DNA of 64,000 nt, taken from contig NZ_SMGG01000004.1 in assembly GCF_004339245.1 (NCBI RefSeq), positions 248,001 through 312,000 of the forward strand, read 5' to 3'. A model generated the notes under the pieces. The model was not told the DNA's origin. It saw only the letters and a program-made list of their open reading frames with translations, and ran no database searches. Shown here one piece after another: positions 16,942 through 24,357 of this stretch (its first letter is position 1; each line of letters starts with the position of its first letter). This stretch comes from Seleniivibrio woodruffii (lineage in GTDB: Bacteria > Chrysiogenota > Deferribacteres > Deferribacterales > Geovibrionaceae). Position numbers and translations under genes: made by a program.

Positions 16942-17616
16942 TTATTTTTTAACCATGACTGATTTAACGAGTTCAATTCTGGTTATTATGTCTTCTGCGT
17001 TTTTGCCCTGCCTTATGCGGGCGTTCTTGATAATTATGAGGTCTCGCAGCAGATTAAGGCTCCAGCCGTGATATTTGTCGATGGCCAGAGCTTTTTCGGC
17101 GAGTTCCTCAGAAAGGGCGGGACTGTCCATTATATAGTCAATGGCGGCTTTTCTCAACAGTCTTGTTTTTGTGACGTCGTCAAACTTAGAGCTTTCTGCG
17201 GCGGAGGCCAGTTTTTCGGGTGTGGCTCCGCTTATGGTTCTGAAAGGTTCAGGAAGTTTATCTCTGTCGTGCGCCTGTCCGCTCAGGTAGAGCACGCTTT
17301 CTGCCTCCTCCTGACACTGTCCGAGAGCTGCATACTTTTTAGCCATTTCCAGAACTGCTGCATCCTCCTGTCCCTCTTCAAGGACATAACGTCCGAGATA
17401 GAGCCTTGAGAGGTTGCAGAGTGAATCCACCCTGCGGAACTGCGCCTCGGCTTTATAGAAATAGCTTTCAGCAACTTTCGGTTCGCCTTTCAGGTAGTTT
17501 TCCATATAAACGTTGTAATATCTGCTTCCGTAGAGGAAGTCGGGTGAGCTTTTGGGCTTGCCGGAACATGATAACATCAGCAGGGAAATAGCTGTGACTA
17601 TTAAAAGGTTTCTCAT
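16942..17616 (-). CDS. lipoprotein of the MCE/Mla-like operon, function unknown
   Basis: A 224-residue protein starting at ATG 17616, which overlaps the mlaD-like stop as ATGA. Residues 1-17 are a lipoprotein signal peptide with lipobox LMLSC, followed by SGKPKSS. The mature part is helical with TPR-like spacing (ESYFYKAEAQF, SLCNLSRLYLG, ELAEKALAIDKYHGW). As last gene of the operon it may be an anchored partner of the lipid-transport machine. An in-frame upstream start at 17670 is rejected because it hides the signal peptide. Confidence 0.65.
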   Translation of the reverse strand: MRNLLIVTAISLLMLSCSGKPKSSPDFLYGSRYYNVYMENYLKGEPKVAESYFYKAEAQFRRVDSLCNLSRLYLGRYVLEEGQEDAAVLEMAKKYAALGQCQEEAESVLYLSGQAHDRDKLPEPFRTISGATPEKLASAAESSKFDDVTKTRLLRKAAIDYIMDSPALSEELAEKALAIDKYHGWSLNLLRDLIIIKNARIRQGKNAEDIITRIELVKSVMVKK

Positions 17617-18641
17617 GGCAGCAGCACCTTCTCGTTTGCCTTTCTGGAAGTGGAGCTGTTGAACGGCCATTTCTCCTCCAGATTCAGAAGCACCCTGTTG
17701 GATGTGTTCAGTATATCATCCGTCTGCTGACGGAGGTCTTTCAGGTTAGTTGTGGTTTCGGATACGTCAGTGGATATCTTATTGGCATTGTTGACGGTCT
17801 TCTGGAGCTTGGTCACAGTGTCGTCAATGTTGCGTGCCAGCTTGCCGATATCCTCCGCTCCCTCTTTGATGGCGACTATGCCTTCATCGAGGTGTTTTAT
17901 GGCGGGCTGAGTTTCGTCAACTCTGTTGTTTACCCCTGCCACGGCAGTATCAACCTTGTTGGTTATCTCTATCAGATTCTCCTGAGCGACAGCCAGCCTG
18001 TCCATGATAGCTTTCACTTCGTTCTTCAGGTAGTCCGAGCGGGTGAGAAATCCCACTGATCCCTGCTTTTTGGAAACGTCCCCGCCGAGGTCGCCCAGCC
18101 CCTGCATCAGGTCTTCTATGCTCTGTCTCTTGTCGGCAACGGATGTTGTGGTTTTATCAACGTTGACAAGGATGTTGCGTACGTTGTCCAGCATGGGTTC
18201 GAATTTCTTTATAAGATCGGCTATGGCCTGTTCCCTTTTCAGTTTATAGGTCTGTCCGTCGTCAATATCGTTTTTGGAGTCAAGTCCGCCGCTCAGAACT
18301 ATGGCGTTTGCGCCTATCACACCCTGGGCCTGAATTTTTGCTTCGGATTCAGGTTTGACCCATTTTTTGTATTTTTCGGGTATCTTCGCACGCAGTTCCA
18401 CCAGACCGTCGTCCCGCAGTTCAATGCTGTATACCTTGGCTATCTGAAAGCCGGAATACATAACGGGCATACTTTTGCTGAGGCCTTCTCCCGATTCGGA
18501 GATGAATACCACTTTAACTTTTGACATGAAGAAGTTCTGAGTGACAAGAAAGCCAATCAGGAACACGAAGAACATTATGAGGGATGCAAAAATAAACAAA
18601 CCGACTTTAAACTCTATATTCTTAAATCTTGGGTCACCCAT
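17613..18641 (-). CDS. MCE/MlaD-family lipid-transport protein
   Basis: A 342-residue protein. One membrane helix lies at about 14-35 (LFIFASLIMFFVFLIG). An MCE domain follows at about 40-120, with SKSMPVMYSGFQIAKV and GANAIVLSGG, and then a ~200-residue helical, coiled-coil tail that would form a periplasmic needle or barrel. MCE proteins ferry phospholipids between inner and outer membranes. It overlaps the upstream ATPase-like gene by 28 bases and the downstream lipoprotein gene by 4, so all four genes form one tightly coupled operon. Confidence 0.88.
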   Translation of the reverse strand: MGDPRFKNIEFKVGLFIFASLIMFFVFLIGFLVTQNFFMSKVKVVFISESGEGLSKSMPVMYSGFQIAKVYSIELRDDGLVELRAKIPEKYKKWVKPESEAKIQAQGVIGANAIVLSGGLDSKNDIDDGQTYKLKREQAIADLIKKFEPMLDNVRNILVNVDKTTTSVADKRQSIEDLMQGLGDLGGDVSKKQGSVGFLTRSDYLKNEVKAIMDRLAVAQENLIEITNKVDTAVAGVNNRVDETQPAIKHLDEGIVAIKEGAEDIGKLARNIDDTVTKLQKTVNNANKISTDVSETTTNLKDLRQQTDDILNTSNRVLLNLEEKWPFNSSTSRKANEKVLLP

Positions 18642-19129
18642 GTGTTAAAATCCTTTTCTGTGTAATCGTTCATATCGTCAAAAAGATGCCTGTGGTTCTC
18701 ATGGTCAATGATAACCGATTTTTTCAAATCTTCACAGCGTAAAAATTGATGGAATTTCTCTTCATATTCCGCAATGAACATGCGTCTGGGGCTGAAAAAG
18801 ACAGTCCATTCCGCTTTGAGATATTTAACCTGTAAGTATTTGACTATCATCTTTTCAAAATCGTTCAGTTCGTTGCTTCTCAGGTGCAGGTGGTCTGTCA
18901 GTCCGTATCTTTCCAGATCCTGTCCTGCCATTCGGAGTCCCTCCGAATAGCTCATCCTGTGGTGGTACGCCGCCGGAAGCAGGATATTTTCAATCACCGA
19001 CAGGTTTCCTATTATGGGAAAAAAGGAGGACACCAGGCCGATGCGCTGTTTCTGGGCAAGATCGGTGAGGCTGTCCAGCCACGTCTGCATGATATCTTTG
19101 TCGTCATAATATATAAGGTAGTTGTTCAT
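18614..19129 (-). CDS. degenerate ABC ATPase-like (MlaF-position) protein
   Basis: A 171-residue protein occupying the place of the MlaF ATPase. The middle, from IGLVSSFFPIIGNLSVIENILLPAAY (split here at residues ~31-56), follows the Q-loop and after-Q-loop pattern of ABC ATPases, then a GLTDHLHLRSNEL stretch corresponds to the region before the signature. No Walker A is present, the signature reads LNDFEK in place of LSGGQ, the Walker B region is VFFSPRR without the catalytic Asp-Glu, and an IIDHE stretch sits where the H-loop would be. It overlaps mlaE and mlaD genes and looks maintained, not decaying. Confidence 0.6.
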   Translation of the reverse strand: MNNYLIYYDDKDIMQTWLDSLTDLAQKQRIGLVSSFFPIIGNLSVIENILLPAAYHHRMSYSEGLRMAGQDLERYGLTDHLHLRSNELNDFEKMIVKYLQVKYLKAEWTVFFSPRRMFIAEYEEKFHQFLRCEDLKKSVIIDHENHRHLFDDMNDYTEKDFNTWVTQDLRI

Positions 19130-19902
19130 AGGAAAACTCCGATGATCTCAACAACTATGATGGCATAAAAAAGGCGCTGCATTCCTCTGAGTAGTGCTAT
19201 AGGTATTTCCGTTACCGCATTTCCTGCCTGCAGAGCGGTGTATATGGGAATTGACATGAGAAAGTAACCGCCAAGTATTACTTTTATAACAAAAACCAAT
19301 AGTGTGTTAAAAGTAAAGGCGTCGAAGATCGTAGTTATCAGGAAATCGAATGATATATTGAGATTAAAACTTAATATAAGGTATCCGCCTATTATTGAGA
19401 TGTAGACAAAGAAGATGGAAAGGGCGGATAAACAGACGATTCCGGAGACTATCCTTGGTATGTAAAGATAGACAAAAGGGTCAATTGACAGCGACTTAAG
19501 TGTTTCTATCTCTCTGTTCATCTTCATCAGGGCAATTTCGGCGGTGACAGCTGTCGAGGTTCTTAGTGTTAAAAGTATCATTGTTACTACGGGAGCAAGC
19601 TGTTTGATGGTTACGGAAACAAGAACCTGACCCACTGCATCCTGTGCTCCGAACTGCACCATAAAGTTTGTAAGCCCGCCGACGAGAGCGAGCCCCAGTG
19701 CGACGGAAACAATTGTGAACATCGGAAGTATCTGAACGCCCGTGAAATATATTTGGCGAAGAAACACAAGCTGTACAGAGGGATAGAGGATATGCGGATT
19801 AAAACACCCTTTGAAAAATGAAACCGTAAACCAGAAGTAGCCGATAAAAAAATGAACCGACGCTATGGCTTTTTGTCCTAGTGCTGTTATGAAATGTTTC
19901 AT
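19126..19902 (-). CDS. MlaE-family ABC transporter permease
   Basis: A 258-residue inner-membrane protein with about five or six membrane helices and the family stretch RTSTAVTAEIALMKMNREIETLKSL near residues 113-137 (listed as positions; RTSTAV and EIALMKMNREIE are key). This is the coupling helix region of MlaE/TGD1 permeases for phospholipids. It is the first gene of the operon. No Shine-Dalgarno sequence precedes ATG 19902, and a TATAAT box lies only about 8 bases upstream of the start codon. Confidence 0.88.
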   Translation of the reverse strand: MKHFITALGQKAIASVHFFIGYFWFTVSFFKGCFNPHILYPSVQLVFLRQIYFTGVQILPMFTIVSVALGLALVGGLTNFMVQFGAQDAVGQVLVSVTIKQLAPVVTMILLTLRTSTAVTAEIALMKMNREIETLKSLSIDPFVYLYIPRIVSGIVCLSALSIFFVYISIIGGYLILSFNLNISFDFLITTIFDAFTFNTLLVFVIKVILGGYFLMSIPIYTALQAGNAVTEIPIALLRGMQRLFYAIIVVEIIGVFL

Positions 19903-19979: not shown

Positions 19980-20048
19980 AAAACAGTCTTTTAACTTTTA
20001 ATAACATCGAATAAGAGCTTATTCTTAAATTTTACAGGAGTGAACGGT

Positions 20049-23000
20049 ATGGCTGAAAACAGAAAAGTGATTATCGACGGCAACACCGCCGCCGCACACG
20101 TTGCACATGCGACAAACGAAGTAATTGCTATCTATCCTATTACCCCTTCTTCAGTAATGGGCGAGATATCCGATGAAAAGTCCGCTGTGGGCGAAACCAA
20201 CATATGGGGCAGTGTTCCCAAGGTTGTGGAACTGCAGTCCGAGGGCGGCGCATCCGGTGCTGTGCACGGTGCTCTTTCCGCAGGTGCGCTGACAACAACA
20301 TTCACAGCGTCTCAGGGTCTTCTGCTGATGATCCCCAACATGTACAAAATCGCAGGTGAGCTTACTCCCACGGTTTTCCATGTTTCCGCCCGTGCGCTTG
20401 CAACACACGCCCTTTCAATCTTCGGCGACCACTCGGACGTTCTGGCCTGCCGTCAGACCGGCTGGGCAATGCTTGCGTCCAACAACCCTCAGGAGGTTAT
20501 GGACTTCGCACTTATTTCTCAGGCTGCCGCACTTGAAGGCAGAGTTCCCGTTCTCCACTTCTTCGACGGTTTCAGAACCTCACACGAGCTTCGCACAACC
20601 ATCGAACTTACAAAAGAAGAGATGAAAGAGATGATCTGTGACGATCTTGTGATCGCCCACAGAAAACGTGCTCTTAATCCCGATACACCCACTATTAAAG
20701 GTACATCACAGAACCCCGACGTTTTCTTCCAGGCGAAGGAGACGGTCAACAAGTTCTATCAGGCTTTCCCTGCAATCGTTCAGTCTCAGATGGACAAGTT
20801 TGCAAAAATGACAGGACGCTCCTACAAACTGGTTGACTACTTCGGCGCACCCGATGCCGAAAAAGTTCTGGTTATCATGGGCTCCGGTGCAGACGTTGCG
20901 GAAGAGGCCATCGAATATATGAACGCATGCGGCGAGAAGGTCGGTCTTGTTAAGATAAGACTTTACAGACCCTTCCCCCTTGACCAGTTCATTGCCGCTC
21001 TTCCCAAGACAGTTAAGAAAATAGCTGTTCTTGACAGAACAAAAGAACCCGGTTCAATCGGCGAACCCATGTATCTTGATGTCCGCACTGCAATCGGCGA
21101 AGCTATGCAGAAGAAGATGTTCAGCTTCGACGGCTATCCTATTATAGTCGGCGGCCGCTATGGTCTGGGCTCTAAAGAGTTCACCCCTGCTATGGTCAAG
21201 GCTGTTTTCGATAACCTTGATGCAAACGAGCCTCTGAACGGTTTCACAGTCGGTATCATGGACGACGTTACCGGTCTCAGCCTTAACTATGACGAAAACT
21301 GGCTGACTCCTCAGGACGACGTTTTCAACGCTATGTTCTTCGGTCTCGGTTCCGACGGTACTGTCGGCGCGAACAAGAACTCCGCAAAGATCATCGGCGA
21401 TCTGACGGACAACACTGTTCAGGCTTACTTTGTTTATGACTCCAAAAAAGCGGGTTCAATGACAACATCTCACCTGCGCTTTGGAAAAAGAAATATAAAA
21501 AGCTCCTATCTGGTTCAGAAAGCAGATTTTGTGGCCTGCCACAACTTCTCTTTCCTCGACAAATACGATATGCTGAAATATCTGAAACCCGGCGGAACTT
21601 TCCTGCTCAACAGCCAGTATTCAGCTGACGAGATCTGGGCGCACATCCCCGCTGTTGTTCAGAAGCAGATAGTCGCAAAACAGGCAAAGGTTTACACCAT
21701 CAACGCTGTTGATCTTGCCGAGAAGATCGGTCTCGGTTCACGCTATAACGTTATCCTTCAGACCGCATTCTTCAAAATCTCCAACATCGTCGATTTCGAC
21801 ACTGTTATCGGAGCTATCAAAGACGCTAACAAGAAGACCTACGGCAGATACGGCGAAAAAGTCGTTAAAATGAACAACGACTCTGTGGATGCCGGCTCAA
21901 CAGGCCTTCAGGAAGTTAAATACCCCGGTCAGGGCGGAGCGGTTTCCGGCGAAGCCATCGAGTTCCCCCTTATCAACAACTGCATAACCGATCCTTCCGC
22001 CACAGATTTCGTTAAAGACACCACAAGCATGCTGGTGGCTATGAGAGGCGACGAGGTGAAGGTCAGCCAGCTTCCCAACGACGGAACTTTCCCCACGGGA
22101 ACTGCCAAGTTTGAAAAACGTAACATCGCCATCAACATACCTGAGTGGGACTCAGAACTTTGCATCCAGTGTGCTATCTGCTCATTCGTTTGTCCGCACG
22201 CTGCCATCCGTACATCGGTATATCCCGCATCCGAACTTTCAAAAGCCCCCGCTTCATTCAAATCAATGGACGCAAAAGGCAAAGAGTTCGACGGAATGAA
22301 GTTTACAGTTCAGGTTGCTCCTGAAGACTGTACAGGCTGCGGCGCATGTGTTTACAACTGCCCCGCAAAAAGCAAGACAAACCCCGAACACAAGGCCATC
22401 AATATGGTCAACCAGCTCACCATCAGAGATCAGGAGATCAAAAACTTCGATTTCTTCCTGACACTGCCCGAGCTGCCCAACGAAAAATACAACAAGGCAA
22501 CTCTCAAGGGTTCACAGCTTGCTCCCCACATGTTCGAGTTCTCCGGAGCTTGCGCAGGCTGCGGCGAAACTCCCTACATCAAACTGCTTGCTCAGCTGTT
22601 CGGTGACAGAGCACTCATCGCCAACGCAACAGGCTGTTCATCAATCTACGGCGGTAACCTGCCCACCACGCCTTACACTACAAGATGTGACGGCAAAGGC
22701 CCCGCCTGGTCAAACTCTCTGTTCGAAGACAACGCAGAGTTCGGTTTCGGTATGAGACTGACAGTTGACAAGTTCAACTCTATGGCTCTGGAACTGCTGG
22801 ACAGACTGGCAGACAAACTGGATGCCGCTCTTGTTGCTGAGATAAAAACTGCCGAGCAGAAAGACCAGCTCCAGATCGAAGCTCAGAGAGCAAGAGTTGA
22901 AAAACTCAAAGCCGCTCTCGCAGGCGTTTCCGATTCCGATGCTAAAAACCTTATCTCAATCGCTGACTATCTGGTTAAGAAATCAGTATGGGTTGTCGGC

Positions 23001-23639
23001 GGTGACGGCTGGGCGTATGACATCGGCTACGGCGGTCTCGACCACGTTCTGGCTTCCGGCGAGAACATCAATGTTCTGGTTCTGGATACCGAAGTTTACT
23101 CGAACACAGGCGGTCAGGCTTCCAAGTCTACCCCCATCGGCGCACAGGCGAAGTTCGCATTCTCCGGTAAAGCTGCTGAGAAGAAAGACCTTTCCATGAT
23201 ATGCATGACATACGGACACATATATGTTGCCAGAGTTGCTCTGGCCAACCCCGCACAGGTTATCAAAGCCTTTGTTGAAGCGGAAGCTCATGATGGTCCT
23301 TCAATCATCATCGCATACTCACACTGTATCGCTCACGGTATCAACATGACCGAAGGCGTTGAAGCACAGAAAAAAGCTGTGGCTTCCGGCTACTGGCCGC
23401 TGTTCCGCTTCAACCCTGAGCTTCGTGAACAGGGCAAAAACCCCCTGACCATCGACAGCAAAGAACCCACAATGTCTCTTAAAGACTTCATGGCTACTGA
23501 GAACAGATTCCGTGTGGTTCAGAAAATGTTCCCCGACAAGGCAGATGCCATCGTCAAGTTTGCTGATATGAAGTCCCGTCAGAGACTCAAACTGTATCAG
23601 GAACTGGCTAAGGTAGATTGCTCTATCGAAGAGAAGTAA
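20049..23639 (+). CDS. nifJ: pyruvate:ferredoxin (flavodoxin) oxidoreductase, single-chain
   Basis: A 1196-residue homodimeric enzyme that oxidises pyruvate to acetyl-CoA and CO2 and reduces ferredoxin. The N-terminal pyrimidine-binding domain begins with AHATNEVIAIYPITPSS; CoA-binding and gamma domains follow. Two 4Fe-4S motifs, CIQCAICSFVCPHAA and CTGCGACVYNCPAKS, lie near residues 700-775, and the TPP/third-cluster region has CAGCGETPY and GDGWAYDIGYGG. All expected cysteines are present. ATG 20049 is chosen over GTG 20040 since AGGAG is eight bases upstream. It is monocistronic with its own promoter and terminator. Confidence 0.97.
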   Translation: MAENRKVIIDGNTAAAHVAHATNEVIAIYPITPSSVMGEISDEKSAVGETNIWGSVPKVVELQSEGGASGAVHGALSAGALTTTFTASQGLLLMIPNMYKIAGELTPTVFHVSARALATHALSIFGDHSDVLACRQTGWAMLASNNPQEVMDFALISQAAALEGRVPVLHFFDGFRTSHELRTTIELTKEEMKEMICDDLVIAHRKRALNPDTPTIKGTSQNPDVFFQAKETVNKFYQAFPAIVQSQMDKFAKMTGRSYKLVDYFGAPDAEKVLVIMGSGADVAEEAIEYMNACGEKVGLVKIRLYRPFPLDQFIAALPKTVKKIAVLDRTKEPGSIGEPMYLDVRTAIGEAMQKKMFSFDGYPIIVGGRYGLGSKEFTPAMVKAVFDNLDANEPLNGFTVGIMDDVTGLSLNYDENWLTPQDDVFNAMFFGLGSDGTVGANKNSAKIIGDLTDNTVQAYFVYDSKKAGSMTTSHLRFGKRNIKSSYLVQKADFVACHNFSFLDKYDMLKYLKPGGTFLLNSQYSADEIWAHIPAVVQKQIVAKQAKVYTINAVDLAEKIGLGSRYNVILQTAFFKISNIVDFDTVIGAIKDANKKTYGRYGEKVVKMNNDSVDAGSTGLQEVKYPGQGGAVSGEAIEFPLINNCITDPSATDFVKDTTSMLVAMRGDEVKVSQLPNDGTFPTGTAKFEKRNIAINIPEWDSELCIQCAICSFVCPHAAIRTSVYPASELSKAPASFKSMDAKGKEFDGMKFTVQVAPEDCTGCGACVYNCPAKSKTNPEHKAINMVNQLTIRDQEIKNFDFFLTLPELPNEKYNKATLKGSQLAPHMFEFSGACAGCGETPYIKLLAQLFGDRALIANATGCSSIYGGNLPTTPYTTRCDGKGPAWSNSLFEDNAEFGFGMRLTVDKFNSMALELLDRLADKLDAALVAEIKTAEQKDQLQIEAQRARVEKLKAALAGVSDSDAKNLISIADYLVKKSVWVVGGDGWAYDIGYGGLDHVLASGENINVLVLDTEVYSNTGGQASKSTPIGAQAKFAFSGKAAEKKDLSMICMTYGHIYVARVALANPAQVIKAFVEAEAHDGPSIIIAYSHCIAHGINMTEGVEAQKKAVASGYWPLFRFNPELREQGKNPLTIDSKEPTMSLKDFMATENRFRVVQKMFPDKADAIVKFADMKSRQRLKLYQELAKVDCSIEEK

Positions 23640-23785: not shown

Positions 23786-23898
23786 GCATGCAGAAATAAA
23801 TGACGAATAAACATCCCGAATTACAGCGTGTATCCGCCTTAATCATATCATTCAGCATATTTCGCTATAATCCTCAGACTTTTAAACAGGAGAGGGTT

Positions 23899-24357
23899 AT
23901 GGAGAAGATAATTCAGCGTATCAAAGACTATGAGGGCTACAGCGACAAGCCTTATCAGTGCACGGCGAAGAAATGGACGATCGGTTTCGGCTACAATTAC
24001 GAGGACAGAGGTTTTTCGGTATCCGATATCACTGAGATACTTGCGAAAGGGTTTTCAAAAGAGATGGCGGACAGGCTGATCGTGAAAGATTTTCAGAGAT
24101 GCATGAAGGAAGCTGAGGCGTTTCCGTTCTTTAAGACACTTAACGAAGCCAGACAGGCTGTCGTTATCGACATGATATATCAGCTTGGCATCAAAGGGTT
24201 CAAAGCGTTTAAAAAGATGCTGGATAACCTTGATAAGGGTAACTTTAAGGGTGCTTCGCAGGAGATGGTGAACAGCAAATGGTACACGCAGTCGGGCAGA
24301 AGAGGGCGGACGAATGTGCAGCAGATGGAAACAGGGGTCTGGCAGGAAATTAAGTAG
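23899..24357 (+). CDS. phage-type lysozyme (GH24, T4-like muramidase)
   Basis: A 152-residue single-domain protein. The catalytic Glu is in RIKDYEGYSDKPY (residue 12), followed by the TIGFGYN motif, a long helix with ARQAVVIDMIYQLGIKGF, and a late SGRRGRTNVQQMETG stretch. It lacks a signal peptide, as endolysins that need a holin do. ATG 23899 follows AGGAGAGGG; a TATAAT at 23866-23871 precedes it. No holin, spanin or other phage gene is near, and repeats flank it on both sides, so it is a phage relic or a domesticated enzyme. Confidence 0.85.
   Translation: MEKIIQRIKDYEGYSDKPYQCTAKKWTIGFGYNYEDRGFSVSDITEILAKGFSKEMADRLIVKDFQRCMKEAEAFPFFKTLNEARQAVVIDMIYQLGIKGFKAFKKMLDNLDKGNFKGASQEMVNSKWYTQSGRRGRTNVQQMETGVWQEIK

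Follow-up and report, generated by a model that had tools for sequence, protein, structure and literature searches.

A conserved ABC ATPase-like protein without nucleotide-site motifs and its probable role as partner of a divergent MlaE permease

What does a protein do when it is encoded in the position of an ABC transporter's ATPase but carries none of the motifs of an ATP site? The question is raised by a four-gene operon in a 64,000-nucleotide stretch of the Seleniivibrio woodruffii genome (the window). The operon is transcribed from the minus strand in the order mlaE2, pseudo-NBD, mlaD2, lipoprotein gene:

19126..19902, minus strand: mlaE2, operon gene 1, an MlaE-family permease of 258 aa (PF02405, E=3e-43)
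19126..19129, minus strand: 4-nt ATGA overlap between the mlaE2 stop and the pseudo-NBD start
18614..19129, minus strand: pseudo-NBD, 171 aa with an ATG start, ABC ATPase-like, nucleotide-site motifs gone
18614..18641, minus strand: 28-nt overlap between the pseudo-NBD 3' end and the mlaD2 start
17613..18641, minus strand: mlaD2, an MCE (MlaD-type) protein of 342 aa (PF02470, E=1.4e-7)
16942..17616, minus strand: fourth gene, a lipoprotein of 224 aa that starts MRNLLIV and has a lipobox-like SC site

As the original prediction stated, the pseudo-NBD gene lies where MlaF should be and overlaps both of its neighbours, by 4 nt with mlaE2 and by 28 nt with mlaD2; the 4-nt overlap is also found in nearly all relatives tabulated. 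The mlaD2 product has an N-terminal hydrophobic helix, an MCE domain at about residues 43-118, and then a coiled-coil-like C-terminal part; it matches coiled-coil families too in a Pfam scan. A longer lipoprotein ORF would start at 17670, but that start is probably wrong: reading from 17616 makes the gene overlap mlaD2 by 4 nt. Its product has weak TPR-like or BamD-like matches (Pfam, NCBIfam). With an MlaE-family permease and an MCE protein together, the operon resembles an MlaEFD-type system; by motif alignment, no active MlaF is encoded with the permease. The permease matches MlaE families exclusively in Pfam and NCBIfam, and no membrane protein of the PqiA/LetA family was found in its place. 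Elsewhere in the window, a phage-type lysozyme gene (23800-24357, plus strand; PF00959, E=1.8e-12) adjoins a large pyruvate:ferredoxin oxidoreductase-like gene (20040-23639).

We asked what kind of protein the pseudo-NBD is. A direct Pfam scan gives no match to the ORF, ABC_tran included, and no ABC match to other family members either; in NCBIfam, ABC families are matched below threshold (E=0.0046 or worse). Given the lack of an ABC match in the direct scan, the case for homology rests on profile and fold. A family profile built from 29 aligned orthologues matches PDB entries of ABC ATPases (E=1e-7) from the Q-loop to the H-loop, and profile-profile comparison (hhalign) with the order's own canonical MlaF yields P=96.4, E=1.3e-9. 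An AF2 model computed from the family alignment (pLDDT 91.2, pTM 0.87) has an ABC NBD fold rather than an unrelated one; the Foldseek matches listed from the PDB are all ABC ATPase domains (TMq 0.52-0.75), with E. coli MlaF (6xbd) at 0.69. In the model, strands and helices alternate and the helices are 15 residues or shorter, none of transmembrane length. An MlaB-type STAS domain is absent by Pfam, and the predicted fold is that of an NBD. Together, the profile matches and the predicted fold show that the pseudo-NBD descends from ABC NBDs and folds like one.

The nucleotide site, in contrast to the fold, has been lost. Walker A is absent in every member tabulated. Residues 2-25 form a strand and a helix that correspond either to the pair flanking the P-loop or to what follows it; on both readings there is no P-loop. 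Alignment to MlaF shows LNDF in place of the LSGG signature, FFSP in place of the Walker B YDEP, so that both the Asp and the catalytic Glu are gone, and MFIA in place of the D-loop GLDP. These data confirm the earlier claim that Walker A, Walker B, and the signature are missing. The Q-loop had been described as clear; its segment is indeed recognizable, but the glutamine itself is replaced by Ser. The H-loop position is His143 in S. woodruffii and is replaced in most other families, so this residue is not conserved in the family as a whole. Conservation peaks in the Q-loop/cleft and signature-helix segments, and P38, L43, E47, N48, and Y55 are invariant in the family alignment. We discount the conservation of Trp164 as functional since this residue lies in the mlaD2 overlap, where the mlaD2 start codon (ATGG) may explain it. 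The pseudo-NBD would thus appear to be an ABC ATPase subunit that kept its fold while losing its nucleotide site, and it probably does not bind ATP.

The short form of the protein is present in 38 of the 51 genomes of the phylum (E below 1e-24), in families f1, f2, f3, f6, f7, and f8 of the order and in f9 of the same class. Its length stays at about 162-179 aa across families, and the gene order of permease, pseudo-NBD, MCE, and lipoprotein is identical in all tabulated loci. The MlaE2-type permease is found in all 38 genomes that have the pseudo-NBD and in no others; the remaining 13 have neither. Two genomes of family f5 (G015 and G022; L087, L088) differ from the rest of the order in having two canonical MlaE-MlaF operons and no pseudo-NBD. 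A separate contig scan returned three orthologues from the Seleniivibrio group and one weak match in Verrucomicrobiia, for which no adjoining MlaE-type ORF was detected.

The permease that accompanies the pseudo-NBD is itself unusual. PF02405 scores split MlaE proteins into two classes, a canonical one at 227-282 bits and a divergent one (MlaE2) at 35-170 bits, and it is the divergent class that adjoins the pseudo-NBD. In E. coli, the coupling helix of MlaE contacts MlaF (PMC7790496). This helix reads MKVTEQ[IV]DAL in canonical permeases versus MKMNREIETL in MlaE2; the TEQ-DAL motif, near-invariant in MlaF-partnered permeases, is lost from MlaE2, and its Glu126 is found in 0 of 21 MlaE2 sequences and 0 of 19 permeases from a second phylum that also has a pseudo-NBD. 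These two groups share a new conserved coupling-helix motif of the N-R-E-I type. Scored over residues at least 90% conserved in the canonical MlaE of the same group, MlaE2 retains 56% in TM3-TM4 and 38% in the coupling helix but just 14% in TM1, 10% in the cytoplasmic loop between TM4 and TM5, and 7% in TM5; the low value in TM1 means that the change extends beyond the cytoplasmic face. Part of the coupling-helix change is shared with a third phylum whose ATPases are full-length, so the change marks the lineage and not the loss of the ATPase alone.

We think it somewhat probable that the pseudo-NBD is a dedicated subunit of MlaE2 and that MlaE2, MlaD2, and the lipoprotein form an MCE lipid conduit that works without ATP hydrolysis by its own subunits. 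The pseudo-NBD would be the cytoplasmic partner of MlaE2 and would dock at the NBD position, most likely on an MlaE2 dimer and probably in two copies. There it may stabilise or gate the permease, and MlaE2-MlaD2-lipoprotein would move lipid without hydrolysing ATP itself. There is precedent for an ATPase-less membrane protein in MCE systems, namely PqiA and LetA (PMC10897342; PMC12436622).

Two observations run counter to this reading: the coupling helix retained in MlaE2 could still take MlaF, and an ATPase from outside the operon is conceivable, since every genome with the system, all 38 of them, also encodes an intact MlaF. In S. woodruffii this is a single gene, with no second MlaF above the cut-off in the genome:

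C4:431601-432353: canonical MlaF of the S. woodruffii genome, in a complete MlaE-MlaF-MlaD operon

That operon (L098 1017-4133; G000 C4 ~430000-433100) lies outside the window, and its MlaD is long (522 aa), as in transenvelope-type systems. Pfam profiles found no MlaA or MlaC in the genome. As to the suggestion that the true ATPase is encoded elsewhere, an intact mlaF exists, but this gene sits inside a complete operon of its own.

The main alternative to a dedicated subunit is that canonical MlaF powers MlaE2 and that the pseudo-NBD acts as a regulator, competing with MlaF or limiting its access as Mce1N does. In mycobacteria, Mce1N blocks the binding of MceG to YrbE1B, and the Mce systems there apparently share MceG (PMC10517005). 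The presence of an intact MlaF in all of the pseudo-NBD genomes fits such an arrangement but says little for or against it: nearly all genomes of both phyla with a pseudo-NBD have canonical Mla, so that co-presence does not decide between a dedicated pseudo-NBD and a shared MlaF. Moreover, canonical MlaF already has its own permease and MCE partner in its operon, and the TEQ-DAL motif of MlaF-partnered permeases is gone from MlaE2. A regulator translationally coupled to the permease would also be expected to stay bound, leaving the transporter off by default. We consider the sharing of MlaF unlikely, though it deserves to be taken seriously.

A wide search recovered short pseudo-NBD relatives outside the home phylum. 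In the phylum of G281, 21 of 28 genomes encode a pseudo-NBD that lacks Walker A, is about 130-147 aa long, and adjoins an MlaE2-type permease. It aligns to the window family at P=99.1, E=1.1e-18, and its model is also an NBD fold (pLDDT 87). These proteins retain a Walker B-like Asp (IDRP), with the Glu lost. Outside genus g113, the second phylum has the same four-gene order, with the MCE gene and the lipoprotein downstream in the lineages examined; the lipoprotein profile of the window family matches the fourth gene there at 2e-13 to 6e-7. Within g113 (L109, L110, L113-L123), mlaE2 and the pseudo-NBD form a two-gene unit with no adjacent MCE gene. This two-gene unit would fit a role of the permease and pseudo-NBD other than lipid transport, for example as a membrane sensor to which the MCE protein is an accessory; in the other lineages examined, however, the operon has kept its MCE and lipoprotein genes, and we regard this idea as very unlikely.

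In the phylum of G214 (L133-L143), operons of a permease, a full-length NBD, and an MCE gene display graded motif loss: some of the NBDs have every motif, others lack the switch His, and in part of these the catalytic Glu is replaced by Asn as well (FWDNP) while Walker A is kept. The pseudo-NBD is nearer to this ATPase type (hhalign E ~1e-15) than to the local MlaF (4e-10). We rejected the possibility that these ATPases form a decay series ancestral to the pseudo-NBD: the members without His or Glu form a clade of their own (99/91) among intact relatives, and their loss is therefore parallel. In the permease tree, the window group is one clade (98/99), the second-phylum group is another (100/99), and a 100/100 branch divides both from the canonical and third-phylum permeases. 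In a tree of the NBD core, which has long branches and is built on 121 columns, the two pseudo-NBD groups fall on the same side of a 100/99 branch; this is compatible with a single origin across the two phyla but does not prove it. We tentatively propose, a little short of an even call, that in one lineage of MCE transporters, spread over two phyla or more, an ABC-type MlaE permease has become ATP-free and its NBD has been kept as a nucleotide-free clamp or gate, and that operons of this type in the third phylum have in parallel lost part of their catalytic residues.

Could the pseudo-NBD nevertheless contribute to ATP hydrolysis by pairing with one copy of MlaF in an asymmetric dimer, as in the degenerate-site ABC transporters? 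Some ABC exporters do have such pairs, with one of the two sites degenerate (PMC7756269). Judging from the alignment, however, a dimer that includes the pseudo-NBD would complete no canonical ATP site with any partner because Walker A and the signature are both gone; neither composite site would be whole, one lacking Walker A and the other the signature. In addition, the C-terminal handshake of MlaF requires a partner MlaF (PMC7367683), and the pseudo-NBD ends before any such extension. We find such pairing marginally less credible still than a sensor role.

We also measured selection on the gene. With the mlaD2 overlap removed, dN/dS of the pseudo-NBD is 0.026-0.129 over 13 pairs, far below 1; the values for mlaE2 are 0.022-0.095, somewhat lower but of the same order. 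None of the tabulated loci of close relatives holds an intact orthologue inside the pseudo-NBD operon, as would be seen had this copy simply broken. In one genome, G009 (L016), there is an in-frame TAG near residue 143, either an error or a real truncation. That TAG and the overlaps at both ends of the gene are what a decaying relic retained merely through its neighbours' reading frames might show, but such a relic is almost certainly not what we see, and the selection data refute it at the level of the order: dN/dS is 0.03-0.13 outside the mlaD2 overlap, on a par with mlaE2, and the length, the five invariant residues, and a confidently predicted fold have all been kept.

The pseudo-NBD thus seems to be functional and to have taken on a new role, and its gene does not look broken. 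The original prediction was sound on ABC homology, the MlaF position, and the loss of ATP motifs, but its label of remnant misleads: throughout the order, purifying selection maintains the short form, which is found again in a second phylum. It had offered three outcomes, an ATPase elsewhere, operation without ATP hydrolysis, or a regulator of the permease, and chose none; the evidence favours a structural pseudo-NBD in a system without ATP hydrolysis of its own, with a shared, distant MlaF as the less likely alternative.

ABC transporters are defined by NBDs driven by ATP, and in a conserved, dedicated NBD without a nucleotide site, kept together with its permease, the domain's structural function would be uncoupled from its function as a motor. 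The system also bears on the open question of the direction and energy source of MCE lipid transporters; with canonical and ATPase-dead versions in one genome, the two can be compared within a single cell envelope. Surveys that seek MlaF by ATPase profile can miss the subunit.

How does the operon compare with known systems? We found no description of a pseudo-ATPase in an MlaE system in the literature searched, a scope outside which most subscription papers and preprints fall. Minimal MlaEFD systems have been described for most diderms, for example Veillonella parvula, in a survey that used profiles together with synteny to recognise MlaF and that also mentions MlaDE clusters (PMC10665443). 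Like MlaFEDB of E. coli and MlaEFD of V. parvula, the S. woodruffii operon combines an MlaE-family permease, a gene in the ATPase position, and an MCE protein, and as in V. parvula, the genome is without MlaA or MlaC; in those systems, however, MlaF is an active ATPase, whereas here a pseudo-NBD takes its position and a canonical operon exists separately. The Mpc system of Brucella (MpcEFDA) likewise has a permease, an NBD, an MCE protein, and a lipoprotein, but the description of MpcF is that of an MlaF homologue and ABC ATPase (PMC12436622), and MpcA is PqiC-like, unlike the lipoprotein here with its weak TPR-like or BamD-like matches. Mce1N resembles the pseudo-NBD in being a small, non-hydrolysing protein, one that competes with the ATPase for an MCE permease (PMC10517005), but it spans the membrane with two helices and its gene lies outside the mce operon, whereas the pseudo-NBD is soluble, has an NBD fold, and is encoded within its operon. 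Degenerate-site ABC transporters have also lost catalytic residues of an NBD, yet they keep the P-loop and one competent site per dimer (PMC7756269), and the pseudo-NBD has none of P-loop, signature, and Walker B. PqiABC and LetAB are likewise MCE systems, and no ATPase is known for their inner-membrane proteins (PMC10897342); PqiA and LetA belong to an unrelated permease family, whereas the S. woodruffii system retains an MlaE-type permease together with a subunit derived from an ABC ATPase.
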